Shown here piece after piece: positions 1,266-55,600 of a DNA stretch of 64,000 nt. The notes beneath the pieces are model-generated. The model was not told the origin of the DNA. It searched no databases and saw only the letters and a program-made list of their open reading frames with translations. Position 1 is the first letter of the stretch. Every line of letters begins with the position of its first letter. The stretch spans positions 81,868,270-81,932,269 of the forward strand of contig JAKGHH010000004.1 in the NCBI GenBank assembly GCA_022828595.1, written 5' to 3'. The position numbers and the translations under genes are program-made. Origin of the DNA: Nelumbo lutea. Taxonomy: Eukaryota > Streptophyta > Magnoliopsida > Proteales > Nelumbonaceae.

Positions 1266-1932
1266 TTTAAATATTTAATGAATTGCTTTAATGATGTAAC
1301 CCGATTTGTTCTATGAACTACTAAATTTTTGTAATTGACTGATGGACTGATCCGTTTTAGTAGTTGTTTACCTATTTAACACACATCAAATTATAGTTGG
1401 TTCCACAGCCTCCAATTCATTTAGAAGTCCCCAAAAAGTATTGCCAAGTAAACTCTTTCTTCAATCTCCATGTCCGTTCTTTGTACTTTTGATTCATATA
1501 GACTTTGCATGTGTCTTGTTTCATGGACGTTTTGTGATATGTGTTTATTAAAATGCCACCAAGTCATCACCACATCAACAATTTTCTCATTATGTTCATC
1601 TGTATGCATTGGTTTTTACAAAAGCGGGTTTTGATTTATGTGTGCACCAACCATTAGGGGAAACTTCATTTTAACGCATCCCCAATGATAGAGCATTTAT
1701 TTACTCAACCGTTGATGTGGTGCCTAATTATCAATAAATGATTTATCAAGTATTTTTCTCGATTTTAAAGACAAATCAAATAAACAAAAGCTATACTAAA
1801 TACATACTTTGTTTAATGTTAGGGCGGCAATCGCCACTAGTCTTAATGTCTATGTGCTAACCTTATGGTCCAAAGGAGCGACCCATGTAAAATTTGGGCA
1901 AGGTCAACCACCCTAATATGGATCTACCCATC

Positions 1933-2333
1933 TAGGGCTGTCAATGGGTTGGGTCTAGTTTGGGATACTCTGCACCAGCCCTGAATCATTTATTAATCAA
2001 GATAATTGGGTCCGACTGGATTATACTGATATTTATAATTGTTTATGTAAATAACAACTTAAGATTTAATTTTTGATAATATAACAATAAAGTTGACAAT
2101 AAAATAGTCAAGTGTTTTTAACCATAGTTGTCTTATATATTATTTATCAAATTTATCTAAATAATGAAAATTAGGAAATCTTTATATATTATTATCAAAA
2201 TAATCGGTTTTGGGTCTTAATTGATTTGAAACAAACAAGAAAAAGCACCAATCCAATTATTAATCGGGACAAATCACAAAATTAGAACCAATATAACCAG
2301 TTCGGTTAGTAGAACTGACCACTAACAGCCCTA
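1933..2333. repeat. Degenerate hAT-type MITE
   Basis: The ends are TAGGGCTGTCAATGGG on the left and CTAACAGCCCTA on the right, a short terminal inverted repeat of the hAT type (TAGGG...CCCTA). The flanking octamers TACCCATC (1925-1932) and TGCCAATC (2334-2341) match at six of eight positions, fitting an old 8-bp target duplication. The interior is AT-rich and non-coding. Confidence 0.55.
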
Positions 2334-2540
2334 TGCCAATCTCTTGTGAACTCTTTGACGTGGAATATTTTCTTTTGGGTAAAGGAATTTTAATTTCATT
2401 GCTAAGAAAGACAAGGGTCATTCAGAAGTATGTAAGTTGAAATTGAGATTGGTTTCAGCCCTCACACGATCGTATTCACACCATATTTACAAAGACATGC
2501 AACCGTGTATTAGGAATATCTTCATACTTGTATGTTTTTA

Positions 2541-3080
2541 GGGAAAATTCTCGATTAGTACCCTATACTTTGGGTCTAATGCCACTTTGGTCTTTGAACT
2601 TTAAAACGTAAAAATTCAGTATCTAAACTTTCAAAATGTGTCAATCCAATACTTGTCATTAACTAATTTGTTAATTAATTATCAAGTGGCATTTGAAAAG
2701 ACACAAATGTCTTTCGAGTGTCACATAATTTTCTTTATCAACCATCCAAACATTAATAAAAAATGAATAGTCCCAAATCTTTAACTCTTCTATTCAAGAA
2801 AGTTGGTGTCATGCCTTAGTGGGCATTTCGGTGACCCCAACTTTTTTGAATAGAAGAGGTAAGAATTTGGAACTGTTTATTTTTTATCGAAGTTTGAATG
2901 TTTGATAAAGAAAATTAGATGACACTTAAAGGGCTTCTCAAATGCCACTTAACAGCTAATTAATGATAGGTAATGGATTGATATGTTTTGAAAATTTGGA
3001 TATTAAATTATCGCATTTTAAAGTTCAGGGACCAAAGTAATACTAAGCCCAAAGTACAGGGTACTAATAGAAAATTTTTC
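2541..3080. repeat. Long fold-back element (near-palindrome)
   Basis: The left half begins GGGAAAATTCTCGATTAGTA and the right half ends with its imperfect reverse complement (GGTACTAATAGAAAATTTTTC). Pairing continues almost to the middle near 2815, where CTATTCAAGAAAGTTGG faces CCAACTTTTTTGAATAG. Arms of roughly 260 bases make this a strong potential hairpin and small-RNA source. No ORF and no convincing target duplication is visible. Confidence 0.65.
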
Positions 3081-3215
3081 TATTTTATTGAACCGGTTCA
3101 ATACAAATTTCTGATTTTCATTACAGAACTATAAACATTCAAAATGTCAACAACTTACATTCTATGCATCAAGGCCCCCTATGAATTAGCATTAATTCCA
3201 AGCTGACACTGGGCC

Positions 3216-3223
3216 TATAAATT
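3216..3223 (+). promoter_or_regulatory. Putative TATA box of the DCD-domain gene
   Basis: TATAAATT lies upstream of a stretch that ends in a good splice donor (GAG/gtacct, exon end 3583). The first coding exon is preceded by a pyrimidine-rich acceptor (CATATAG/, exon start 5849). The simplest model is a non-coding first exon ending at 3583, a 2.3-kb 5'UTR intron (3584-5848) and the start codon at 5886. This is inferred from motifs only; no transcript evidence was available. Confidence 0.35.
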
Positions 3224-4536
3224 CTAACCCTATGCTGAACCGTCATTCTCACAATTTTTTATTCATGAGAAAATATTCGCTGTGAAGATGGTTTAAGGAC
3301 GGTATTGTGACGACTGAAATCGAGTTCGTTGAATACAGAATTCCATAAGCGATACATAACTGCAATTTGGGGGCCGGGTCGGGTTTGTAAAACTGTTGAG
3401 TGCTAAGGGAGTTTTTGGGGTTTTTGTACTTCCACACCTGAGCTAGACTTGGTTTTGGGTCTTCTGGTCTCGCGTTGTTTCTCTCGTCCTTCATTTTTCT
3501 TCGTTTCTTCAAATATTACCTTTATCACTGGTTCCCTGCTGTTAAGTCAAAATCTCGAGATCGAAATCTGAGCTTCTCGAGAGGTACCTTCTTTTCTTCT
3601 CTTTCTTCCAAACAGAAAGCTAATTAGTATGCTATACAGTTATAGTTGAAGTTAGGGTTTCGTAGAGAGTGAGTCTTCCAAGTTTCATTTCTTGAATTTG
3701 ATGACCTTTCCTCGCTTGATCTTTATTGAAACGAAATTCGATTACAGTAATGATGGTCTGGTGCTAGTACCATAATAGGTTGCTGTGTGTGTGCTTGAAA
3801 ATTGTTGTTTAGTTGAGATTTTTGGAGACTGGAATTCTATAAATATAATTGATTTTCGAGGAAGTGTTTAACTATTTTCCGTTCATGAATTTCGTTGAGT
3901 TTAATTGCTTAAGGCTTATTGTCCATTTCTGCTTCGTGTGTTCTAATATAATAACTGTGTAACGCATACAATTTGTTTGACTTTGTCTAGATGTTCCGTT
4001 TTTTAGTTTTCTAGGAGACGTTCAGATTACATCCTCCTTGGAATGATGGAGCTGTTAATTACAAACTCGTCCGAGTCATTCATAATATATGTAAATAAAA
4101 AGGGAAAACAACTGAAGGCAGTTTTTGCAAGTGATTGCGAAATATTTGAGAGTAACCCAAAGTTAAATGAAATCTTGTATTTCCTGGACCATTGTGATTT
4201 CAGAAAACAGAAATGCAAACCTTCAGAAGTCCAGTTAACATTGTTGTTGCCTTGATTTTATAATTTAAATAATTAAATTATTAGTTGATACTGTTATGAG
4301 AATACTGCAATTTTAAGCCATAACTTGAAGAAGTGCAGTGCCTGATGACCTAATCTATTGTAGAAGTGTAGTATGCTAAAACTTAGGATTCTTGATTGTC
4401 ATGTCGCAAGTTTGTTATTGCATTTTTTATTGATGAAAATTCTCTATCCTATAACTATGGAATGCAGCTAGATGGATAAATATAACCTGTAGCAATTTAT
4501 TTATTATTCTGCATACAACCTACTTGTACCCATAGG

Positions 4537-5885: not shown

Positions 5886-7572
5886 ATGGCACGTGGGCAA
5901 AAAAAGAAGAAAAACCAGCATGTTGCTGAAGCCCCATCAACATCATTGCCATCTGAAAAGGAAACTTCAAAGACTTTGAAGCCTAAACCTAAAATCATGA
6001 AGAATCCTCCCAACCAGAACTCTGCAAAGATAAAAGAATCCAAGGGCACTTCACAGGATCAAGAGAAAATGAAGAAGAAAGACATGCAGGAGAGCAAGGA
6101 GAAAGTTAACACCAAGCCACAGAAGGATGAAAAGAAGCCACATTTACAAGAAGGAAAGAAAGAGGGGAATGTTAACAATGAAAAACGTGGTGAAAATAGC
6201 CATGGAGACCAAAAGGACAAGGAAGAACTTGGTGGCTTGATCTTCATGTGTAATGCAAAGACCAAGCCAGATTGTTTCCGCTACCAGGTCATGGGTGTCC
6301 CAGCAAGCAAGCAAGAGCTTGTCATGGGAATCAAGCCAGGTCTAAAACTCTTCCTCTATGATTTTGATCTGAAGCTTCTGTATGGAATCTACAAGGCAGC
6401 TTCTGCTGGTGGCAAAAAACTTGAGCCAGCTGCTTTTGGTGGTGAATTCCCTATTCAGGTTTTATTTCATCAATCTCCTTCGTGCATGAGATGCCATTTC
6501 TTTTACCGCACATATAGTTGATAATCGGGTACATTTTTTATGACTCTTTCCTGCAGGTGCGGTTCAAGATTCACAAGGATTGCATTCCACTACCAGAGAA
6601 TGTTTTTAAGAAGGCAATCCAGGACAACTACAATGAAAAGAACAAGTTTAAGACAGAGCTTTCATTCCAAAAAGTAATAAACACACCTGATTGCCCAGCT
6701 ATCAACTGATCACCCTTTTTTAATTCCAAAGAGCTCAGTGATTATTCTTTCCCCATAATTTAGACTTTGGTGCCACCAATATCCTCTTTCAGGTAAAGAA
6801 GCTCATGGAACTGTTCCGCCCTGCACCAGAAATCCAATCAAATGCTCAATCTTTTCTTTCATCCCAGTCAGCAACCCTCCCATGGGTGCCACCAATGGCA
6901 ACCGTACATGCAGAGGATTTTCAGGGAAGAAGAGAGCTTCCATCTGATCATGAAGAGGGCAGAAGAGAGCCTCCATCTGATCCACTTTTTCCGAGTGAGA
7001 AGGAATACCGGCTCTATGGTCTTGTCAGGCGCCCCTCAAATCCTCCTGATATTTCCTATCCTACTGCTCCTGCACACTATGGAAGGGGGCAGTGCATGGG
7101 GCAACCTGCCCCTTTAGATGGAGAAACAGGTCGTGATGCACTCTTCCTAAGTGAGAGAGAGTATCGAACCTACGGTCTTGCACGAGAACCACCTACTTCA
7201 ACACTGCCTGCTACTGGTACTTCAGTCCCTCACACAAAGGAGTCATGCTATCCTGTTGGTTATGGACCTTATGGTGCTGTACACTCTAGTGTGTATCCTC
7301 CCCTACCAAGGAGAGAGACAGCTTCTTCAGAGCATTATCCTTTGGTCCCAAGGAGAGAGAGTTATTGCACTGACTCTGATTACCAAGAAAGAGGCACCGC
7401 TGATTACTTGGGAAGGAGAAGACCTGATGAAGTGGAAGGTTCATATTCAACGTATGCTTCCAATGTTCTATCGGATTACAACCAGAGACACCATTTGGGT
7501 GGCAGAGCTGATCTTACATCCCAATCAGTCTCATCTCGGTACTCATTTGCTGGCCCACCATCTTACCGCTGA
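5886..7572 (+). CDS. DCD (Development and Cell Death) domain protein
   Basis: Three coding exons, join(5886..6458, 6557..6673, 6793..7572), all phase 0 with GT-AG introns, give a protein of 489 residues. Residues 1-115 are a charged, lysine-rich and probably disordered tail with a KKKK patch near the start. Residues about 116-243 are the DCD domain: it starts [11 protein letters not shown] and contains the hallmark FLYDFD..LLYGIY segment and a [14 protein letters not shown] block that is split by intron 1. The C-terminal 245 residues are low-complexity (P, S, Y, R) and hold two copies of a motif like [13 protein letters not shown] (about 293-307 and 345-359). DCD proteins are plant-specific and are linked to stress, development and cell-death signalling; the N-rich proteins are the best-known members. 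The ATG was chosen because the frame is open and an acceptor lies just upstream at 5848. Domain call is firm; exact role is unknown. Confidence 0.9.
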
Positions 7573-8079
7573 GCTGAGTTTCATTCCCTGCCCTTAAAAA
7601 AGGGGATAAAAAGGAAAAGAATTCGCCACATCAACCCTTTGGTCTCACTGGCTGCTGCTTACAAATATGTGGACGTTCACGTTTGCAGGCGGTCTGTTTC
7701 TACAGTTGTGGAATTACATGTTTATGTGGACGTTGGCATTCTTTTTCTCTCATTGAATCGTAAATGAGATCATATTGGGGTATTTTATGTTTGGGCTTCG
7801 TTAGCCCGAATTTGACAGTGTACCTTAGACCTTACCTTAGTCCATGGAGGCTGGAGCTCTTTGCTCTGGACGCCTCTTTAGAAATCCTCGTCTGGGTTCA
7901 GGGAAAATTATTTGGAAATATGGTTCACTGACACACACTTTCCGTTTTCGTTTTAACGCTTGTGTTCCTTTGACAAAGCATTTTGCCCACCGATGCCAAA
8001 TGCAATGCATGTTGCAGAATTGGGGATCCATATTTCATCCATTTACAAATGGATCAAATTCGAATTGTTTTGACCAGAT

Positions 8080-8081
<2 letters not shown>

Positions 8082-8112
<31 letters not shown>
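8082..8112. repeat. (TA)n microsatellite
   Basis: About fifteen TA dinucleotides. This is simple sequence just downstream of the DCD gene; open reading frames across it encode only Tyr-Ile runs. Confidence 0.9.
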
Positions 8113-8117
<5 letters not shown>

Positions 8118-8279
8118 GGATTGGGATGCTCTTTCCGTGCACGAAATGGAATCTACTCGTGCCTGTAGATTCTCACGTGAGAGCAACCCATTTCCTAATT
8201 GTTAGATAATTATATAATTATATAAATATATAATAGTTATTATATCGAACCTTTCAAACAGTTATGTCAGAATGATCGA

Positions 8280-9198
8280 CCATTTGACCTGATAATTGGA
8301 CCCCTGACCGGTTTGGTCTTCGGGTCGGTTTTAAAAGCCATGATGTTATGTTATTCAAGCGTGTGACTCATATGACTCGAAAATGGAATTGTTCTAGCTA
8401 TCGATTTTCAGGTCAATGATTCAACCATCCGATTCAAATAGTTAGACCGTTCAACCTAATAACCGGACTCCTGACCGGTTTGGTCTTTAGGTCAATTTTA
8501 AAAACTATGATGTTATGTCATTCGAGCGTGTGACTCATATGACCCAAAAATGGAACCATTTTGGCCATTGGTTTTTGAGTCGACAGTTTGATCGTCTAGT
8601 TTGAACAAACAGCCCGTTATGACAACAAAAATAATAAAAAAAGTCCAAAAACCATTGAATGGGTCAACGGGTTGACGATTCGACCACTCGGGTCAATGGG
8701 TCATTGACCAATTCAATGATTTTTGGCTAGGGACTGGGATTGGGGTAAAACGGAACTGGTTGCTTAGACGGTTCTGAATTCAAAAAATAAAAAAAGAACA
8801 ACTCGTTTTGACAACAAAAATTACAAGCAAAAAATTGAGTGTGAGGTTCATTAAGTAGTATCATATGTGTTATGCCATTCAAGCATGTGACTCATACGAC
8901 ATAAAAACGGAACGTTCTAGCCACCAATTTTTGGGTCGACGGTTCGATTGTTCGGTTCGAACAGATGACCCGTTTTGACAACAAAAATTAACAAATAAAA
9001 AAAATGACAAAAAACCATTGAACGAGTCAATGATTTGACTGTTCGGGTCAATGGGTCGTTGACCGATTCAACGATTTTTTTCCAGGGATCGAAATTAGGA
9101 TAAAACGGAACCAGCTGCCTGGATGGTTCCCAATTAAAAATAAATAAATGACCGAAAACCATTTTACGGGTGAATGGGTCAATGGTTTGATCGCTTGG
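8280..9198. repeat. Degenerate tandem repeat array (GGTCAATGGGTC family)
   Basis: Blocks containing GTGACTCATATGAC, CCGTTTTGACAACAAAAAT and GGGTCAATGGGTC recur with about 160-360 base spacing (for example 8365, 8529 and 8889), with many substitutions. They look like several overlapping decayed copies of one non-coding element. The array is interrupted by the solo LTR at 9199 and resumes at 11081 with GATCAATGGATCATTGACC. A related unit lies at 11439-11683. No coding capacity. Confidence 0.6.
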
Positions 9199-40600: not shown

Positions 40601-43600
40601 CTTGACACATGCTCAAGAACTGATGAAGCACTATTATGATGCAAAACACAAGCCCGTTGAGTTCCAGGAAAGCGAGTTTGTCTACCTAAAACTCAAACCA
40701 TATAGACAGGCCTCAGTGGCCTCCCACCCCTACAACAAGCTTTTCCCTATGTTCTATGGACCATTCAAAATTCTACAACGGATAGGACCATTAGCCTACA
40801 AGTTGGAACTTCCAGTAGACTCCAAAGTACACCTGGTTTTCCATGTCTCCGTCCTTAAGAAAGCTGTCAATCCACAAATGGATGAAACAAGGTTGAGCCT
40901 TTATTAAAGAGGCATTAGTCTGCTAGGAAGGGTTACCAAATGAAGAAGCCACATGGGAGCCCAGCACTGAGTTGATACAACACTTTCCACACTATGGCCA
41001 CGAGGACGAGTGCTAGCTTGAGGAGGGGGGAGATGTTAGAGGCACAAGGGGGCAGGGACTATGTTATGGACGCATTCGTGGGGAAGAAGTACCGCCGCCG
41101 GCAGAAGCAGTAACGTGGGACCCTCATCAGATTATCTAGCTAGCCACAGTTCATTTTACCTTATCTTTATCTTATCTGCTTTCTTACTCTTATCTTATCT
41201 GTTCCAATAAGGATTAGTATAGAGTCTGATTTATCTTAGGGAGTTTTTATCCTTCTTGAGTAGGGAGTCTTATCTAGGAGTCTTATCTATCTTATCTGTA
41301 AGCAGTTTAGTTAGTCTTATCTAGGAGTCTTATCTATCTTATCTGTAAGCAGTTTAGTTATCAAGGAGTCTTCCTACAAGGAGGACTCTTACCTCTTGTA
41401 ATCTCCTATTTAAGGAGCTGAAATTATTGAATAAAGATATCAAATTTCCAGTCAAGAAAGAGAGTAAAAGGAGAGTTCAGTGATCTCTTGGACAAATCAC
41501 CCTCTAGGACGCCAAGATAGGTTCAGCTAGGAAGGGGAGGAACAAGGGAAAACAAGAGCTTTTCCCCGGGGACCGACCCGTGACGAGATCCTATTCCCGG
41601 GCCCATAACAATTTGCTATCAGAGCTTATCGTCATGGGAGATCTGGAGCAGCTATCATCCAAGGTCCACGAACTGGAGCATAGGCTCGTGGAAACTAGCG
41701 TGGAGGTTCGTGAGGTCAAAGACGATGTCTGGGAGCTGCGATGCTTGCTGGAATCGTATTTCTTTAACAAGGAGAGGAATCCAGAAGGGGCTGTAACCAC
41801 AAACAGCCGCCGACCAGACTTGATGGAGTTGTCCGATGAACAGCAGGTCGTCCCCTCGGTAGCCCCGGTCGTTCCCAAGTACAGCAGGCTGGAGTTCCCT
41901 TCATACAACGGCGCCAGAGATCCTTTGGGATGGCTGTACAGATGCGAGCAGTTCTTCCGCAACCAACGGACAGGGGACAACGATAAGGTAAGCTTGGCCG
42001 CATTCCACGTGACAGAGGAGGCGCAACTCTGGTTTTATAAATTGGAGCAGGAGGAACCCGGGCTTAGTTGGACCCAATTCAAATCCTATTGCCTCCTCAG
42101 GTTTGGGCCCCCATTGACGAGCAACTCATTGAGTGAACTGATCAACCTCAAACAGGCGGGAATGGTGGTTGAATACCAGTGCCATTTCCAGACCCTCCTT
42201 GCCAAAGCAGCTTCGGTACGACCGGACCAGCAGGTAGACATGTTCACGTAGGGTTAGTAGAACCCTTAAGGGTGAATGTGGAGATGCAACACCCCCCCAA
42301 AGCAGCTTCGGTACGACCGGACCAGCAGGTAGACATGTTCACGCAAGGTTAGTAGAACCCTTGAGGGTGGATGTGGAGATGCAACACCCGAACGAAAGAT
42401 GCAGCTCAGTCGCGGAACCTTCAGTATGGGGCGGCTTCCAACCGCATGGGCATCCCTGGAACCACTCGGAATGGCTCCATCTTCAGTAGCCAGCCAAGAA
42501 CGGAAACCACAGACGAGCCACAATTCCAGATCAGCATCCAGTGAGGGGAGCAGCGTTGTTGCACCCCCTATTAAGCACTTGTCCAAGGCTGAGATGGCGG
42601 AACGCAGGGTGAGGGGACAGTGTTTTAATTGTGATGAACTCTACTCAGCAGGGCACAAGTGCAAGAGACTTTTCTACCTCCTGGTGGAACAAGAGGACGA
42701 TGAGGATGAACTCCCTTCATTTGAACCCAATCCAGGAGGGCTAAATCATTCCACCTATCTTGGATTCCCTTGACTGAACTCCAAGACACATATCCAGATT
42801 TTGAGCTTGAGGACAAGCTCGTAGTCCAGGAGGGGAGTAATGTTATGGACGCATTCGTGGGGAAGAAGTACCGCCGCCGGCAGCAGTAGTAACGTGGCAC
42901 CCTCATCAGATTATCTAGCTAGCCACAGTTCATCTTACCTTATCTTTATCTTATTTGCTTTTTTACTCTTATCTTATCTGTTCCAATAAGGATTAGTATA
43001 GAGTCTGATTTATCTTAGGGAGTTTTTATCCTTCTTGAGTAGGGAGTCTTATCTAGGAGTCTTATCTATCTTATCTGTAAGCAGTTTAGTTAGTCTTATC
43101 TAGGAGTCTTATCTATCTTATCTGTAAGTAGTTTAGTTATCAAGGAGTCTTCCTACAAGGAGGACTCTTACCTCTTGTAATCTCCTATTTAAGGAGCTGA
43201 AATTATTGAATAAAGATATCAAATTTCTAGTCAAGAAAGAGAGTAAAAGGAGAGTTCGGTGGTCTCTTGGACAAATCACCCTCTAGGACGCCAAGATAGG
43301 TTCAGCTAGGAAGGGGAGGAACAAGGGAAAACAGGAGCTTTTCCCCGGGGACCGACCCGTGACGAGATCCTATTCCCAAGCCCATAAGTCTAACCTTGTC
43401 CTCAAGGTTAAAATGAGGAAATTGGTCTCGAAGCAAGTCAAAAGGCTAACCTTGTCCTCAAGGTTACCCGCCGCCCAAAGTCTAACCTTGTCCTCAAGGT
43501 TGAAATGAGGAAATTGGTCTCGAAGCAAGTCAAAAGGCTCCCAAGAATCTTCAAAATCAGGTAGGCCCTGCCAATGAATAAGCACTTCCAAACCAGTAAC

Positions 43601-46600
43601 TCCAGGCATAGTGGATGGATGCGCACCGCGCACTGATATGTCCCTGCACAGGCCAAGCAGCAGCATCACCCAATGCACAGATGGTGTGTCTGCTTTGTCA
43701 CCTCTTGAAGCATGTCTATTTCCTCCAGCTTCGCGTTTCCAACCTTCAACTCTCCATGATCATCCACAACCATCCTATCCCCTCCTTGCATGGTGTACAC
43801 TGCCCACAACTTTCATGCTTATAGAAGTAAGAGAGCCTAGCAATTGCATCCACAATATCAGTTGACTTGTCCATCACAATTACATCAGTTGTCCCTAAAC
43901 CCGTTTGGACAGCCTTGAGTGCATCATAATCCATCAACACATCATCACATATGTGCTTTGGAATCAGTGGAACAAAAGAACCCCCTAGTATCACTGTAAG
44001 CAAATTATCCCATCCACCTCTAACTCCTCCATAGTGCCTCTCTATCAGCTCTTTCAATGGAATACTCATCTCCCCTTCAACTGTACAAGGCTTATTCACG
44101 TGGCCTGAGACACAGAATAGCTTTGTCCCAGAATTGTTCTTCCTGTCAAAACTAGCAAACCATTCAGGACCACGCCTTAAAATTGTGGGGGAAACAACCA
44201 CAGTTTCAACATTTGTAACAGTTGTTGGACATCCATATAGCCCTGTATTAGCTGGAAAAGGAGGCTTCAACCTTGGTTTTCCTTGTTTTCCTTCAAGCTT
44301 TCCAACAACGCCATCTCTTCTCCACAAATGTAAGCATCAGCTCCATAGTGGATATGAACATCAAAATCTTATCCAGATCCACAAGCATTTTTTCCCAAAA
44401 GTCCAGCTTGATAAGCTTCCCTCCTTGCCTTCTCAAGGTTTTTCCGCTCATTTACCTACTCTCCCCTTATGTAGATATAAGTAGTAGTGGCCTGCATACC
44501 AACCCCTGCAATCAGGCAACCCTCTAGTAGTTTATGTGGGTTGTTGACAGGTGTATTATATGTTCGGTACGCAGGTTTAGTGCCTGTAGGGGTATTTTTG
44601 TAATTTTGTAGACCTCTTGTGTTGTACTGCTAGTATAGTATAAATACAAATGCTTCACTCGACTGAAGCAGTTCTTTTGAGGCCTTAACTCAGTAGCCTC
44701 TTCTTCCTTCTTCTTCTTCTTCTTCTTCTTCCTTCTTTCCTTTCTTCTTCTCCTGCTCAACATGGTATCAGAGCAGGACCCGAAGGGATGAGAGATCCAT
44801 CGTGTGGACGCCCAAATCTTGCGGAATAAGGTGGGTGAATTTAAAAAAAAAATTCTCTCCCTTCAACTGGGAATCGCATTCCCTATTTAGAAAATCATAT
44901 TTTCAATGATCAATCTTGAATCATAAACCGAACCAGATCTGAACAAAAGTAGTAGGAGAGGATTATACCTGATACGGAGAAATAATATCTCCCAACGAAG
45001 GTGCTCATGCCCAAGGAAGGATATCCAAAGACTGCTCCCACTGAAGATGGCATGCAGAATCAGCAGTGTTCTTCTCCAATAACCAAGTCCTTCGCAAGAA
45101 ATAGCAGGATGGCACGTGAGCACAACTTTCTATCAGTCCCTTCACAAGGAACTGATATCAAGATCGAATCTTGATTTCTCCCACTGAAAAGGAGGTCGAA
45201 CTGGCAGGTGAGGCGGCGACAGGAAGGAGGCGGCATGAGAGAATTTTCGCAGGTATGCTGAATTCTCTCTTTTGTGATTTCAGCTCTAAAGACTTGCAGT
45301 GATCTGATGATCTTGTGATATCTAAAGGTTGCCGCCCCTTCCTTCTTTTGTAACCTTAAAGGATCAGCTCGTAATCCCATTAGGAGTTGCTGATCCAAAT
45401 CATATTTGGATCAAACATCCATTTAGGTGATAAGGATAAACCCTTATCTTATCTGCATATTAGATCAGCCTTCTCCTAATCGCATTAGGAGGTTTCCAGA
45501 TCTGAATCACATTCAGATCTAAACTCTCTGAGTAGATAGGGTTAAGACCCTATCCTATCTGCTAATCCATCCTAGAATTCACCCCATATTTAACTAATTA
45601 AAACAACCCAGTTCGAAATGGGCTTTAGGCCCACTAAGGTCAAGTGCTCACTTAGCTTTCCTAACTGCTGCCCAATTGGGCTTCCTTGTATGGCGTGAGA
45701 CCCAAGCATTGATCTACACATCAGCCACATGGGTTCAGCCCAGCCTTTGCTACAAGGCCTGGCCGAATACACTGTTATGGACAGTGCACCCCTGAAACCC
45801 ATCACATGGGCTTTATGGGCCCAACACTTACCCTAAGTGGTCCCTGGGCCAAGCCACCTTGTAACACCCAGGGACTGTGGGAAAATGTAAGATTAGCCCA
45901 TCAGGTATTATCCTCAATGGTCTTACACTCAACCTCTCAGCCCATAATGATCAAACATTGCCCGACAAGAGAGGACCTCTCCCTCGGCTGCAAGGAACAG
46001 TGCTGCACTCTCTACTTATATGGATCCCGGGAATTAAAACCTTCTTGCAAACATTTTGGAAACCATAATATATATACTTTTATATCTCATATAAAATATA
46101 TTTTGCAAAACAAATCTCAACGATCGAAATCGGCTGCCGACAGTCTTGGTTTCCATTAGTGAGAGTGCATCCCCGATCATTACCTTTGTCCGACGAAGGG
46201 GCTGATCCTGTCACTATGATCACCCACTCAGATGAATTCTCAGACTGTCCCAACATACCCAGGTTTTGATCCCCGCTAAGGATCTCACTGATTGGTACAT
46301 CAAAGACAGCCCAATCCGACACCTAGTATAGTATCATAATCGAGTCTAGGGGTCGGGTGTAACTTTTCAGTTTTGCCCATTAATCTCCAAGGTCCAGGGC
46401 AATACTGAAAATCTGGTCCGGTTCAAAGATTCAATTAATCATACACTGCATGTGCCTTGGGTCTCACCCTGGCGGCTGAGACAGGCCATCCCAACCGACT
46501 TAGTGACACATCAGTGTTAGCCTTATCAGGATAGGTCTCCTCAGACCGACCCACTGGCTGTGAACATTCTAAACTAACACGAGTCTCATTAAGTGTCCAG

Positions 46601-49600
46601 TTTAAGGGTATTACACAGAAACATACCAAAGGAACATGAACCAAATATGTACTTTATTCATTTACAATAAACTCATAATGTACATCATTCTGATTGAAGC
46701 TAAGGGTATACAAAAACTGTCTAACAGGACCGTCCAAGCCTGGAAAACAACCAGTTGAGGTCTCTCTCTGTTGCTGTGTAGAAGCTATAGTCCTGATGCT
46801 CGAAGACAAGGAAAAGGAAGCTTTCTCTAGTGTTGCGATTAGTCTCCACTGCCGAGTAGGGCTCTGCTACAAGAAAGCTGACTGTTCAACTTCCTAGCGC
46901 AGAAAAAGGTTCTGCTACAAGTTTTTTCTTCTTCATCCTTCATCCTTCAGCCCAAGGTGATGGTAACTGGAGTTGCTCGACTAAGAAGCCTGTAGAAAAC
47001 CATCCCAAATGTACGAAGGAGGGTTCTGACCTGAAGAGAAGTTTGAGTCCATGACTGTACTGCCTATTCACAGTTCGGGTGACCTAGGTATTGAACTGAA
47101 TTTTTTTCTATTTGTGGTTCTATTCTTGCCTCCTTCGATGGACTGTTAATGTCCCAAAATTTGAGTAGGGACTGTTCCCCTTCCTCCGATTGTGTGTTGC
47201 TCTATTCAACTCTCTAAGGGACTGTTGATGAATCCTAAACCCTAAGTGACTGTTCAGCTGCCCTGGAAAGTGGATATCAACCAATTAGGTGTGGTGAACC
47301 ACCACTCGTATTGTTGTTCCTACTGAGTTTTTTTCAGCTGAGAAGTTGCATTAAAGTTGTAAAACTGTAGGTCATTCAGACCTGGTTACACTGCAAGTGC
47401 AGTTCGTATATTGTTCTGTGGACTCCTACACAGTGTAGGTCATACAATCTAGTACTGCAGCTGCAGTGTTTGTGCTTGGTTCTTTGTGAAACCGAAAATC
47501 AGCAAGTGCCTAGTTATGGACTGTAGTAGCTCTGTAAGCCAGTGTTCTGAACCTAGAAGTATGAATAGTGAAGATTCAACTACATCCGGAATCTCTACAA
47601 TGCTGAATGGAATGAGTGAGAGTAGTGACCTATCCTTCCCTATGGCTGCGGTTCCTCTTGATGGGTTAAACTACCTAGAGTGGTCAAGGGGGATCAAACT
47701 ATACATAACTACAAGGGGAAAAATAGGCTACATAAATGGAAGAATCAAAGAACCACCTTCTGGAAATGCAGAACATGATAGATGGGATCAGGAGAACAGT
47801 ATGGTTATGTCATGGCTTTTGATCTCCATGCAACCACAAATAAGGAAGAACTTCATGCGGGCTGAAACTGCAAATGAGATATGGGAACATGCAAAATCCA
47901 CATTCTGAATTTCGACACTGCCAAGATTTATCAACTGCAAGCAACTTCATCTACTTGTAAACAGGGGGAGAGGAGTTTATCAGTTTATTACTCTGATTTG
48001 TCCACTGTTTGGAAGGAGTTGGAGCATTACCAGAATATTGATTGGAAGTGTGATGAGGATGCAAAATTGTATAAGAAACTTGTCTCACTGCAAAGAGTGT
48101 TTGCTTTTTTACATGGTCTCAATCCTATCTATGAATCCATCGGGTACAAATTCTAAGTTCTAAGGATCTTCCTTCAATTCAGGAGGTCTATGCTCTTGTC
48201 CAATTTGAAGAGAGCAGGAGGAACTTGATGAACAACACCGGAGGGGATGCAATTGTGTTGGCGGCAAAGGGGGTACCTCTTCTAGTGGTGGACCTTTTTC
48301 CAAGAGAGGGGATCTCCAGAAGAAAGCAGAGGGTAAGGAAAAATTGTGGTGCACTAATTGTCAGAAGCCCAGACACACCAAAGATACTTATTGGGATCTC
48401 CATGGGAAACCAAAGTGGGCTCAGGATTTACCTAAGAAGCAAGGCTCAGATGTAATTAGAAGACCCGGGCAACAAGGTACCAAGAAACACCACATGGCCA
48501 ACATGGTTACTCAGGAGAATCAGCCCTCCACTTCTATGGTGACTCAAACACCACATAGCCAACATATCTACTCTAGATCTGACCCAAGGGAGGATATTGT
48601 AAACTCCTTTCGTGACCATTTAGAGCTTTATGGTAGAGCTATTCGCCAGATGGATGCTCCTTCCACCACCTCTTTTGCATCCACATCAGGTAATCCTGCC
48701 ACAACTTTCCATGTTGCTTCTCACGACCTTGACTCTCCATGGATCATTGATTCTGGATCGTCAAAACATATGACTGGTATGTCCTCTTACTTTCAAACTT
48801 ATCACCCTCTTTCCGGAAGAGATAAAGTGAGACTAGATGATGGATCATACACTTCCATAGCTGGTCAAGGAACTCTCTCTCTTACCCTCGGCCTTACTCT
48901 TTCTAATGTTCTTCATGTTCCAAAATTCCCTATGAATTTGTTTTCAATCAGTAGTGTTACAAATTCCTTAAACTGTTCTGCGACTTTTTTCCCTTCCTAT
49001 TGTGTGATTTAGGATCTGGCCTCGAGGAGGACGATTGGTAGGGGATGTATGGTTCATGGACTCTATATGCTGGAGAATACGACTGGCCTTCATGTTACAG
49101 AGTCTATGAGTCAGTTCAGAAAGAGTAAAATGTATTTGTGGCATTGTCGTTTGGGTCATTTGTCTTTTGAGTCCTTGAAAGTTGTTTTCCCTTAACTGTG
49201 TAAGTCAGTGTTTGTTTCTAATTTTTCTTATCAAACGTGTCAGTTAAGCAAGCATTGTAGAACTCAATTCTCTCAAAGAAATAGTAAATCTGAGTTTCCT
49301 TTTCACATTGTGCATTCTGATGTGTGGGGCCCTGTTACTTTACCTTCTGAGAGTGTCTACAAGTACTTCATTACATTCATTGACGATTATTCCAGATACA
49401 CTTGGGTATATCCAATGCGAACCCGTGAGGAAGTACCAAAAATTATCCAAGATTTTTAGCGGATGGTCTTCACCCAATTTCAGACCGAAATTCAAATATT
49501 TCAATCAGACAATGCAAAAGAGTTTTTTCATAGTGACCTCACGGAGTTCTTTGCTTCACATGTCTCACTTCACCGGAGCTCTTGTGCCCGCACGGCACAA

Positions 49601-52600
49601 CAAAATAGTGTGGCTGAACGGAAGAACCGACACCTTCTTGAAGTGGCACGGGGTTTACTACTCCACATGAATGTTCCCAAACGATTTTGGTTTGAGGTCG
49701 TCCTTTGTTCTACATACCTCATTAACCGAATGTCCTCTCGTTGGTTTGAGTACAAAGCCCCACATCAACTTCTCTTTCCTAAGGCCCCTCTTCTTTCTAT
49801 TCCTCGTGTTTTTGGTTGTCAGTGCTTTGTCCAAAACCTATCTCCCACCCGGGGAAATTGGACTCTCGTGCTATCTCATGCATATTTCTTGGCTACTCAT
49901 TCTCTCAGAAAGGGTATCGTTGCTTTGGTCCTATTTCTCAGAAATTCTATGTCTCCATGGATGTTACCTTCTTTGAAGATGAGTGTAGGCATGAGGAGAA
50001 GCTGGTTCAACTTCCTCCTCTTCCTACTACTTCTCCTTCTCCCCCTTCTCATTCTGATCCTCCACCTTTCCGCATTTTTTCTCGTCGTTGTAAAGGCCAA
50101 CCAGGTTCAAGAGCTGTGGAGAATCCAAAAGCCGTACCTCAAGTGCCATCAAATTCCTTGGGGGAAGATCATATTCACTCAGGTAACTTGACTCCCAACC
50201 TCCCTGTTGCTAATGATCTTGACCTTCCCATTGCCCACAGGAAAGGTGTTAGGTCGTGCACCACTAAACACCCCATTTCAAACTTTGTTTCCTATGAGAA
50301 CATCTCACCTTCATTTTGTGCTTTTCTTACATTCATTGACAATATCCTTATTCCCAAGAATGTGACAGAAGCTCTCTCAGTACCAGAATGGACAAAGGCC
50401 ATGAAGGAAGAAATCGATGCCCTTCATAAGAATGCATGTAGGAACTTTGTTGATCTCCTTAAGGGAAAGGATCTAGTGGGATGTAAATGGGTGTTCATTG
50501 TTAAGCATGGGGCTGATGGAACCGTGAAGAGGTATAAAGCTCGTTTAGTGGCAAAGGGTTTTACTCAAGTATATGGAGTTGATTATGCAGAAACCTTTGT
50601 CCCTGTTGCCAAAATGAACTCTATTAAAGTCATTTTCTCTCTTGCTGCCAATCTGAATTGGGATCTACATCAGCTCGACATCAAGAATGCCTTCTTAAAT
50701 GGTGACCTTGAAGAGGAAGTTTATATGGTTCAACCTCTCGGTTTTTTGGCTCAAGGAAGTGAACAAAAGTGTGCAAGTTAAAGAAGTCTTTATACGGGTT
50801 GAAGCAATCACCAAGAGCTTGGTTCAGTAGATTTCATATTGCAGTTCAGCAGAAGGGATACAAGCAATGCCAGTCAGATCACATGCTGTTTGTAAAAAGA
50901 GTAGAGGGTAAAATGGCTGCCCTAATAGTATATGTGGATGACATAATTGTTACTGGTGACTGGAAGGATGAAATTCAAAGTTTGAAGGGCTTCCTTGCCA
51001 CTCAGTTCGAAGTGAAAGATCTAGGACCCGCCAAATACTTCCTTGGAATTGAGGTTGCCCGATCAAAAAAGGGTATCTTCATCTCTCAAAGGAAATATGT
51101 CCTAGATTTGCTTAAGGACACTGAAAAGATTGGGGTTAAACCAGCTGACTCTCCCATTGACCCCAACCATAAGTTAAGTGATAGCCAAGGTGAACCTCTT
51201 AAGGATGTGAAGCAATTTCAGAGGCTTGTAGGGAGATTGTTGTACCTCTCTATGACACATCCAGACATAGCATATGCTGTTGGTGTCCTCAACCAGTTCA
51301 TGCATGCACCTAGGTCCACTCATCTTGAAGCAGCGGAGAGAATACTGCGGTATCTTAAGAAGTTCCCGGGTGCTGGCTTATTATTCTAGAAACATGAACA
51401 TTTGAGAGTTGAAATTTACACAGATGCGGATTGGGCTGGATCTCAAAGTGACAGAAGGTCTACTAGTGGCTATTGCACCTTTGTAGGAGGGAACCTTGTT
51501 ACTTGGAGGAGTAAGAAGCAAACCGTGGTAGCTAGATCCAGTGCTGAAGCTGAGTACCGTGCAATGGCACACGGAGTAGCCGAAGGTATGTGGATAAAGA
51601 ATCTATTGGGAGAGTTGGGCTTTCTAGTTGACAAACCCATGACTCTACTTTGTGACAACAAGGCAACTATAAGTATCGCTGTCAACCCGGTACTACATGA
51701 TAGAACAAAGCACATTGAGGTTGACAAGCACTTTATTAGAGAGAAAATCATCACAGGCGAAGTATGCACTCCATACATCAGCTTTGAAGACCAACTAGCA
51801 TACATCTTTACAAAAGGGCTAAACCATTCCAGACATCAAGGTCTCTGTGACAAGTTGGGCATGGTTGATATCTATGCCCCCACTTGAGGGGGAGTGTTGA
51901 CAGGTGTATTATATGTATTGTACGTAGGTTTAGTGCCCGTAGGGGTATTTTTGTAATTTTGTAGACCTCTTGTGTTGTACGGCTAGTATAGTATAAATAC
52001 AAATGCTTCACTCGACTAAAGCAGTTCTTTGAGGCCTTAACTCAGTAGCCTCTTCCTTCTTCTTCTTCGTTCTTTCCTTTCTTCTTCTCCTACTCAACAT
52101 GGGTCATGGCGCATAATTTTTCTGTCCTTACATGTTCCTAGCTCACTCTCATCAACATTGACAACAAGATAAGAAGGATGACCATCGGATACTTTTGGCA
52201 TGAAAGACCACTTCAGGCCAGATGGAAAACCAGCTCCACCACGGCCTCGAAGACCAGATTTCTTCATTTCATTGACAATCCAATCAGAGCCCTTAGGTAC
52301 CAAGTCTTTGGTTCTATACCAGTCACCCCGCTTCATGGCACCGTTCAAGAAAGGGTCGTGCAACCCATTAACAAATGCTGCTTCAAGGACTGATTTCGAC
52401 AAGTCACGTAAGGGAGCGAAGATCACCTCGAATTGGCGACGATATCCCTTAATAGTAGAAGACTGATGTAACGAGAAGAGCTGCTCCTTTAAATTACCCT
52501 CTTGAGTCGATCGAAAACGTTCAAGGAGAAGCTCTTTGAATTCTGTCCAACCACGAAAAGGTCGCTGACCAACTTCCCGGTAATACCACGCCAATGCATC

Positions 52601-55600
52601 GCCCTCTAGACAGACAACTGCAGCTCGCAGACGCTTTGCCAGAAACAATCCATTAATCTCCAAATAGCGCTCTGCACGAAAAAGCCAGCCGTCTGGATTT
52701 TCCCCATCAAAAATAGGTAGCTCCAACCTCCGAGGAAGTGGATCAGAAGTATGTTTCAGCACTGACATTGAAGAAGACGTCAGGAAAGCTGCACTTTTCC
52801 CTTTGTCAGCCGCACGACTTGATGCGACTAAAGGAGGAGCAATGTCAGTTGCAGACAAAGGAGGTGAATAGGCCTATTGCTGAAGCAACAAATCAAATTG
52901 TCTCACCAGATCTTGAACACCTCCTTCCAGAGATTGTACCGAGTTCTCTAGGGACGAGATCTTCGAAAGTCCAACAGCTACCTTATTTGGATCAAGTTGC
53001 TGAAACTCATCGCGTAAGCTATCCATCTCCAAACGAAATCCAGAATGCAGAGAAGACAGGCGTTCTTCGAAACCCTCCAACTGCGATGCCACTTCCTTAG
53101 CTGTCACCATGGCCGAGGAAAGACATGCTCTGATACCACTGATAGGTCCCAGAAACTTGACACACAATTCTCAGACTCACAACAGAATTCACACAACTAG
53201 AACATCAACAAAGGAACTGGTATTCATTCAGAAGAAAAGAAGAACATTAACAGTTGGTCGGTTCTTCGAGAGACCGCCGGCTCTCCCAATCACTCACAGT
53301 ATTCTTCACTCAACAAAAGCCTATCTCCCCCATCCCCCAAAGCCCCTTCTTATACTCTTCTCACAGCATAACTGACTCCCTCAATAAATGCCCAGCTGGC
53401 CAAGTTATAAATGCCCATACTCTTCTTATTCCTAACTGACATAGCTATAAATGCCTCAAGACTCTCCTTATTCCCTCCAACTATAATTGCCCCCATGTTC
53501 AATTATTTCCCCCCTTAGCCGAAAGCTAGCCTTTCCCCTTCTTGGCATACGTAAAGTTAATTGGGGGCCTATCACAAACAAGTTGGCAAGTTGTTATAAT
53601 TTTGTTGTAAATTAGTTAAGGCCACCTCCAGCATAAGGAAGCTAGTACAAAGACAGTTGGAGTTAATTGAATCAAGCAAGTTGGAAAGTTTTTTTTTTTT
53701 TTTTTTTATCATCAAAGGAAACTTTTATTTGAAATTAGATTTAAGAGGTTTTTACAATTTTGTGTATGGAACTAGAAGTCCCATACGATTACATATTTCC
53801 GTCCCTTTTACAATGCAGCCCAAAACAATAGTTGCCTCAAAGCCCCTTGTTTAGCAAGATGATCAGCTAGCCCATTTGCACTCCTTCTAACCCATTTGAA
53901 TTCTGCCACTACCTCCCTTGCAACCTTTTCCACTTCCCTTATCACTTGTTTGAAGGTCCGTGGAGTAGTTCTATTGTTATTAGCCCAAGAGATGATCACC
54001 TTGGAATCCCCTTCAACCTCAATTTGCCTCATTCCAAGTTTCTTAGCTATCTTCAATCCTTGTAGCAAAGCCATTACCTCAACTTCTAGAGTGTTGCCCA
54101 TGCCAATAGGTCCAGAGAATAATGCTAATATCCTCCCTTCAGAATTTCTGATTACTCCCCCGATACCTGACAATCCCAGATTTCCAAATGAACTTCCATC
54201 AATGTTCAGTTTAATTCTGTTACCATCTGGGGGTTTACTTTCCGTCCTTACTCTCTCTTTCACTCTTGAAGATTGTGCTACTTCTGTCCAGGATCTTATA
54301 ATGTCAATCAAACAAGTTGGCAAGCTGTTATAATTCTGTTGTAAATCAGTTACATTAAAGGCAAGATTCAATATAAATACAAAGGTGTACTTATAATAAG
54401 GGAATAATAAGAAGATTTGATCTCTTTCTCTCTTCATTCTGACTTTCCCCTATTCTAGAGGTTATCCTCCCTCGAAGAGGATCTGAGTTGGGCAGCTACC
54501 CAACAAAAGCTTGAGATTGACGACCAAGAGTGCAAATCAAGGTCACTCAATAGGATGTTGCATATTGAATTAGAGCAAGATGGAAAATGTAAGGGTGCAT
54601 CTAGAGTTTTATATGTTAGGCAAATACTACTTCAATTAAAAGGAAAATTCTATAAAATAGTTGTAAGGCCAATTATGTTGCATGTATAGATTGTTGGGCA
54701 GTCAAGAAACAACATGTTAGAAATTGAATGTGGCAATGCATATGTTGAGATTGATATATGGTAAAAGTAGAAAGGATATGATAAAAAATGAAGTAATTCA
54801 TAGGAACTTGGTAGTGGCTCCAATTGGTGATAAATTAAAAAAAAGTAGACTAAGATGGTTTGGTAATGTTCATAGAAGACTACCAACAACACTCATATGA
54901 AAAAGTAATTTGTTACGAGTTGAAGGGGCTAGAAGGGAAATGGGTACCAGTAGACCAAAAAGGACATGGGTAAAAGTAGTAAGAAATTATTAAGTGCCAA
55001 TAATTTAACAATGATATGCATTAAATAGAGCAATTGGTGAAACAAGATTCATGTGGTTGACCTCATATAGTTGGGATGAGGCTTGGATGATGAAGAATTA
55101 TAAACTCATAAAGTAAGCGTAAACAAACAAATAGTAGAAACAAACAAGGCTGAAGATCAAGATCCATGCTTTATAACTGGCTCTAGATTTCTTATGTTAA
55201 TCCTTGGTGCAATACAGTACACTGTACACGAGAGAAGTAATTAATAGAAATGGAGTAACAATAATAGTAGACAGGGATCCAAAACAAGAAATTGTAAATG
55301 CTAAAGGAATTGGAGATAGAATAATTTTAATTAGACTTGTTTTAGGTAAGGAAATCATTAACATAATTAGTGCTTATACATCTCAAATGGGTTTAGAAAA
55401 AAATTAAAGAAAATTAAAAGACAATTTTGGGAAAACTCAGAGGGGTTAATCTAAGCAATTCCAAATGATAGAAGATTTTATAGGAGGAGATCTAAATGTG
55501 CATGTGGGAAAAAAGAAGTGCAAGATATGATATGGTGCATGGAGGATTCTGGTTTGAGAAGAAGAGTGAAATATGAGATATAATTTTAGAATTTACAATA

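Follow-up and report, generated by a model that had tools for sequence, protein, structure and literature searches.

Structure of the NDUFV1-Carrying Element

A 64,000-nucleotide stretch of the Nelumbo lutea genome (assembly GCA_022828595.1, contig JAKGHH010000004.1, positions 81,868,270 to 81,932,269; called the window) carries on its minus strand a long terminal repeat (LTR) retrotransposon in which coding sequence of NDUFV1, a complex I gene, stands in the place of pol. The element begins with a 5' LTR (TGATAGG...CTATCA; 53140..53574), which was read in the sequence and agrees with the LTR pairs of sister copies. One base past this LTR, also by reading, lies the primer binding site TGGTATCAGAGC (53127..53138), which is putatively of the initiator tRNA-Met type. 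The same site follows the 5' LTR in sister copies, with some variants (by reading). The gag gene (52369..53110) matches Retrotrans_gag (PF03732) with an E-value of 3.5e-12 and has one in-frame stop at 52876-52874.

The 5' capture junction (52360..52368) consists of ATGGGTTGC, common to native gag and host NDUFV1, and gag passes into NDUFV1 at VNGL/HDPFL without a change of frame. Pfam places Retrotrans_gag and Complex1_51K (PF01512, E-value 2.3e-15) in a single frame of 259 amino acids. The first captured part (52100..52368, by profile and alignment) has 91 amino acids aligned to the plant NDUFV1 chain 6x89_V1. On the far side of an inserted copia element, the second part (43640..44541, by profile and alignment, resuming at 44541 by reading) contains the SLBB and NADH_4Fe-4S domains (Pfam), and its longest open piece (44336-43746) has 186 amino acids aligned to plant NDUFV1 with an E-value of 9.8e-114. 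The closest solved sequences to both parts are NDUFV1 chains of plant complex I. In the window copy NDUFV1 is itself interrupted.

NDUFV1 gives way to the chromodomain end of the element's own pol (43466..43630) at a 3' capture junction of which the exact base is ambiguous (43628..43640). The chromodomain (PF00385) scores 24.9 bits, slightly below the cut-off of 25.1, at the expected place. Part of its tail is repeated (43386..43447, minus strand; the other copy is 43478-43539), past the point where the 3' LTR of sister copies starts, and no 3' LTR of the window copy was found within the 64-kb window. An earlier note, made from the sequence alone, had described this minus-strand order of LTR, primer site, gag, in-frame passage, NDUFV1 and chromodomain, and every part of it was found. 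Chance can be excluded as the origin of the arrangement because of the E-values and its recurrence at other sites in the genome.

Copies Across the Genome

The genome searched was the window's own assembly, comprising 843.7 Mb in 63 contigs. A search with the flavin mononucleotide (FMN) domain profile PF01512 gave 60 matches, merged by hand into 51 sites, namely two host genes and 49 others including the window. The window and 21 other non-host sites were read, and all 22 are elements. Among the 27 unread sites, 19 have a nearby match to a query spanning the NDUFV1-chromodomain junction (40 of 151 candidates scored) and three more span the junction of a second architecture, form B. NDUFV1 is joined to chromodomain and LTR in 18 of 20 loci, the other two (L009 and L016) being the host genes; in 17 of these 18, gag (with deletions in some) and a 5' LTR are present as well, and L013 keeps 29 bases of gag, without a 5' LTR. 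Five more copies outside the FMN-domain list, at L035 to L038, were reached through the junction query and read. L035 has only the NDUFV1 tail, chromodomain and LTR, and L036 and L037 represent a third architecture, form C. At L038, two very similar short internal-deletion copies (1815-3402 and 7065-8601) lie about 5.2 kb apart, likely by local duplication. A one-off rearrangement at the window site is ruled out by the recurrence elsewhere in the genome. Further copies with the same junctions, which the earlier note had proposed to look for, were found, and 19 of the copies read have two LTRs.

These 19 copies are the 21 element loci minus L013 (one LTR) and L020 (tandem). Perfect 5-bp target duplications flank 14 of them; L019 and L029 have a duplication with one mismatch, and the other three have none, with no match in L017 and L023 and no LTR start found in L027. 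Since each copy could be given more than one candidate end, the chance of a target duplication is above 1 in 1024 per copy. The family thus shows the paired LTRs, 5-bp target duplications and adjoining primer site of an LTR retrotransposon. Kimura two-parameter (K2P) divergence between paired LTRs is 0.017-0.065, with a median of 0.044, in the 13 copies with cleaner ends; the six omitted include L017 and L026, with 0.099 and 0.112 in a rougher estimate. At a substitution rate of 1.3e-8 per site per year, the 13 copies are 0.7-2.5 million years old. A rate of 4.2e-9, derived here from the Ks of 0.5428 and age of 65 million years that a passage of PMC4053705 gives for the lotus duplication, makes them 2.0-7.7 million years old.

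Breakpoints and Architectures

Breakpoints were placed on the scale of the host paralogue L016, and the 40 of 65 candidates scored comprise the two host genes and 38 non-host sites. NDUFV1 starts at host position 12 in 22 of the 38, at 441-444 in 11 and elsewhere in five. The first part of the window copy starts at 12, and its second part is among the five. At one of the 11 sites starting at 441-444, the unread C4:11802242, a separate FMN-domain match lies 6 kb upstream. None of the 38 goes beyond host position 1194, short of the 1272 to which the two host genes extend. A processed pseudogene of the long interspersed nuclear element (LINE) type is therefore ruled out, since the host 3' end is absent at all 38 sites and, in the copies read, element sequence takes over at that point. 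The earlier note's placing of NDUFV1 where pol would be expected is supported, and the breakpoints are common to many copies.

Form A loci run from gag through NDUFV1 to the chromodomain, with no room for reverse transcriptase (RT). The nine bases ATGGGTTGC at their 5' junction are those shared by host NDUFV1 and native gag, the latter as seen in form B. Form B continues through gag, a zinc knuckle (by reading) and protease up to ...GGGGTTTT, and then enters NDUFV1. The host sequence GGTTTTCCATCTGG sits further upstream in NDUFV1, and form B possibly arose in two steps, first a switch at GGTTTT and then an internal deletion with a TCTGG repeat at either side. The 3' junction is common to forms A, B and C. 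In the NDUFV1 tree, form B (100/100) stands beside the form A rows L023, L026 and L027 with moderate support (92/87). Separate NDUFV1 captures for A and B are disfavoured by this position beside a form A subgroup and by the same 3' junction. Tests for recombination between gag and NDUFV1 gave mixed results. On the gag tree, the NDUFV1 group L015/L017/L021 is rejected (p 3e-7); in the reverse direction, the gag group L021/L022/L024 is not rejected on the NDUFV1 tree (p 0.30). Both groups were chosen after the trees were seen.

Pol-Bearing Relatives

A gag-protease query (L029:2500-3700) was used to find relatives, with 40 of 143 candidates scored. At 30 of these 40 places the match ends at query position 1049 or earlier, i.e., before the form B junction. 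Three such places (L032, L033 and L034) were read from protease to LTR, and chromodomain and LTR are present in each. Compared with the window pieces, the chromodomain of these pol-bearing relatives is about 92% identical and the LTR 74-87%. Domain scans covered L033 and L034. The L033 pieces contain RVT_1, RNase H, SH3_Tf2-1, Integrase_p58_C and a weak chromodomain (PF00385, 22.1 bits against a cut-off of 25.1), and the L034 piece contains Integrase_H2C2. Form A lacks RT and integrase and has relatives that share its kind of LTR, gag end and chromodomain and possess pieces of both enzymes, as expected of a non-autonomous element mobilised in trans.

A Second Captured Gene

In form C (L036 and L037), about 620 bases, 96% alike in the two copies, lie between gag and NDUFV1. 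The L037 frame contains Lectin_C (E-value 3.5e-10) and matches plant C-type lectin receptor-like kinases among the best 120 of 7515 matches. Two Nelumbo database proteins, P0125 and P0127, run from lectin and membrane span to the kinase start and then, by reading, into a readout of chromodomain and LTR, which pairwise comparisons support. The lectin-kinase capture thus exists apart from NDUFV1, because both proteins pass from the kinase start into chromodomain-LTR sequence. Form C is likely a recombinant between gene-carrying forms; in the 3' part of NDUFV1, L036 groups with form B and L037 does not. Taken together, the slot between gag and chromodomain probably acts as a serial gene-capture cassette, in which at least two unrelated host genes have been taken up and whose copies recombine among themselves and with pol-bearing relatives, making frames such as gag-lectin-membrane span-NDUFV1.

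Five database proteins match the junction stretch, and the one that spans the junction is P0003, an NDUFV1-like prediction from Nelumbo nucifera (among the best 120 of 7993 matches), which makes it a gag-NDUFV1 fusion by prediction. Two gag relatives in the database are also named Nelumbo nucifera. P0003, under a mitochondrial NDUFV1-like name, and P0125 and P0127, one of which is named as a C-type lectin protein, are all readouts of copies of this kind.

Host NDUFV1 Genes and Evolution of the Captured Sequence

There are two host NDUFV1 genes. L009 is open throughout, whereas L016 has a frame break near the presequence and alterations in motifs that L009 keeps, the FMN loop among them. The second gene, L016 3740-5155 (C3:5741832-5743247), may be a recent pseudogene or contain an assembly error. 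The alignable frame of both begins after an acceptor-like site, where the proteins of other plants start MAPIK (P0006) or MGSIK (P0022), and we infer an intron just past the start codon. The NDUFV1 tree (24 rows) places L016 as sister to the 22 element rows together, with moderate support (91/81), a position that suits one capture. The apparently decayed paralogue L016 is the closest gene to the captured NDUFV1. The captured region is a single exon in both host genes. The missing introns of the elements therefore say nothing on RNA versus DNA origin, and intron loss was dropped as a proof of an RNA step.

Substitutions were counted in the 22 element rows for codons in positions 12-1125, at sites where L009 equals L016 and at least 10 elements are present; the rows are related by descent and no p-values are given. 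Private NDUFV1 substitutions (56 silent, 188 replacement and 9 stop) follow the expectation without constraint (54.4, 188.5 and 10.1), as do the shared ones (22, 90 and 3 against 26.4, 84.1 and 4.5). In gag (17 of the 22 rows, with long gag), singletons are near neutral (43 silent and 125 replacement against 46 and 118) and shared changes are rich in silent ones (75 silent and 93 replacement against 51 (51.3) and 116), which indicates that constraint is detectable by such a test. By these counts the captured NDUFV1 is evolving neutrally, and a selected fusion protein is unsupported.

The earlier note had suggested a gag-NDUFV1 fusion protein as the first product, and fused open frames do exist, of 613 amino acids in L010 and 617 in L014, with one such protein predicted in Nelumbo. 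The five near-fixed NDUFV1 changes lean the same way, 4 being silent and 1 a replacement where 1.6 and 3.4 would be expected, although they are too few to weigh and possibly precede the capture. That such a protein is functional and kept by selection is nevertheless highly improbable, given the neutral substitutions beside a gag test that does detect constraint and an 8-nt deletion close to where NDUFV1 ends, present in 17 of 19 element loci compared over that stretch.

Proposed Origin and Mobilization of the Family

The copies very probably belong to a non-autonomous gypsy-type LTR family that carries NDUFV1 in place of pol and is likely spread by the enzymes of pol-bearing relatives. In the proposed mechanism, RT copying element RNA would change template at ATGGGTTGC, continue on an NDUFV1 transcript packaged alongside and return near the chromodomain, giving a chimera. 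Since this chimera would keep the LTRs, primer site and gag start, its packaging, copying and integration could proceed in trans. Forms B and C would then likely stem from later switches, with relatives that bear pol and with an element that had the lectin receptor kinase. Template switching as the capture route is suggested by the 9-nt match at the junction.

Alternatively, the first chimera may have arisen by DNA rearrangement, through end joining or ectopic recombination of an NDUFV1 segment into a resident element, with retrotransposition only spreading it later. This is unlikely, though the nine shared bases would also suit microhomology end joining and the captured host stretch, as a single exon, has no spliced intron to mark an RNA step. 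Both breakpoints lie inside coding sequence and the entry lies between gag and chromodomain, which suits template switching, and the family's uptake of another host gene at that same place, together with signs of further switches between copies, points the same way; none of this is proof. The earlier note had proposed a switch between host mRNA and element RNA at a short match. The match is there, in the nine bases, and a captured region that is one exon in both host genes fits an mRNA or a DNA source alike. A single-exon source goes half way to what that note named as telling against it, an intronless source with junctions better explained by genomic rearrangement; the rearrangement is not favoured.

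Several observations weigh against a trans-mobilised family founded by template switching. More than half of the non-host sites (27 of 49) are unread, and five of these 27 show NDUFV1 matches only, with no junction match. The pol frames are interrupted in all three relatives, and no working partner was identified, none having been sought. With the host region in one exon, the RNA origin is unproven, and about 13 bases at the 3' junction match exactly neither the host nor the three pol-bearing relatives read. The present analysis adds to the earlier note the copia split, the gag stop, the family of dozens, several architectures and the second captured host gene.

Nested and Neighbouring Elements

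NDUFV1 in the window is split by a Ty1/copia element (44542..52099, plus strand) with LTRs at 44542-44762 and 51895-52099 and an LTR K2P of 0.045. Its target duplication ACCCA is found at 52100..52104 and 44537..44541 (both minus strand). The copia insertion is later than the NDUFV1 capture element because of the duplicated ACCCA and the LTR divergence of 0.045. Between the copia LTR with its primer site and the copia gag, about 1.9 kb (44763-46700) may be a further insert.

A second LTR element (41061-43391), the terminal repeats of which are 97.6% identical along 548 bp, borders directly on the NDUFV1 element's 3' end, where part of the latter's chromodomain tail occurs twice. A LINE-like element, represented by an RNase H-type frame (RVT_3; 53808-54449) and a poly-A run near 53700, lies just upstream of the 5' LTR. 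A 44-nt repeat occurs at 53575-53618 and 54309-54352.

Comparison With Known Systems

Plant LTR elements that capture host genes are already known. No description of this NDUFV1-carrying family was found in the open-licence literature searched (among the titles and abstract openings listed). On the evidence here, the family belongs with the gene-transducing LTR retrotransposons.

BARE-2 and Veju are non-autonomous elements moved in trans. Both are LTR-element chimeras, which are put down to abnormal template switching (PMC13317346); their donors are another element or unknown DNA, whereas the donor of the lotus family is an identified host gene. Terminal-repeat retrotransposons in miniature (TRIMs) lack gag, in contrast to the lotus element, which retains it and in form B also has protease. 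In soybean and Medicago, 30 TRIMs of seven subfamilies have exons without introns inside LTR ends (PMC4717578). Maize has 425 LTR elements with gene fragments, from at least 189 captures in 81 families (PMC2774510), and rice and sorghum were surveyed for host fragments inside LTR elements (PMC3726574). These families resemble the lotus one in having host fragments inside LTR elements, and the main-text passages on them make no mention of NDUFV1 or of captured sequence standing in for pol between gag and chromodomain.

The closest known system is Bs1 of maize, an LTR retrotransposon that has taken up three host genes (PMC13317346), with segments of a plasma membrane ATPase, a xylan endohydrolase and a glucanase, at low copy (PMC2774510). 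As in Bs1, host coding sequence in lotus lies inside the LTRs and is mobile with the element. The lotus family differs in its cargo of NDUFV1 and lectin receptor kinase, its dozens of NDUFV1 sites and its likely recombinants between gene-carrying forms. Within one genome, dozens of datable copies with common breakpoints can be set beside the host gene closest to them, relatives that bear pol, several architectures and a second captured gene, so that the steps of capture, amplification and reshuffling can be read. The introns of the lectin kinase gene offer a test of RNA-level capture. NDUFV1 annotations in lotus include transposon copies, one example being a gag fusion that is predicted as a mitochondrial-like NDUFV1.

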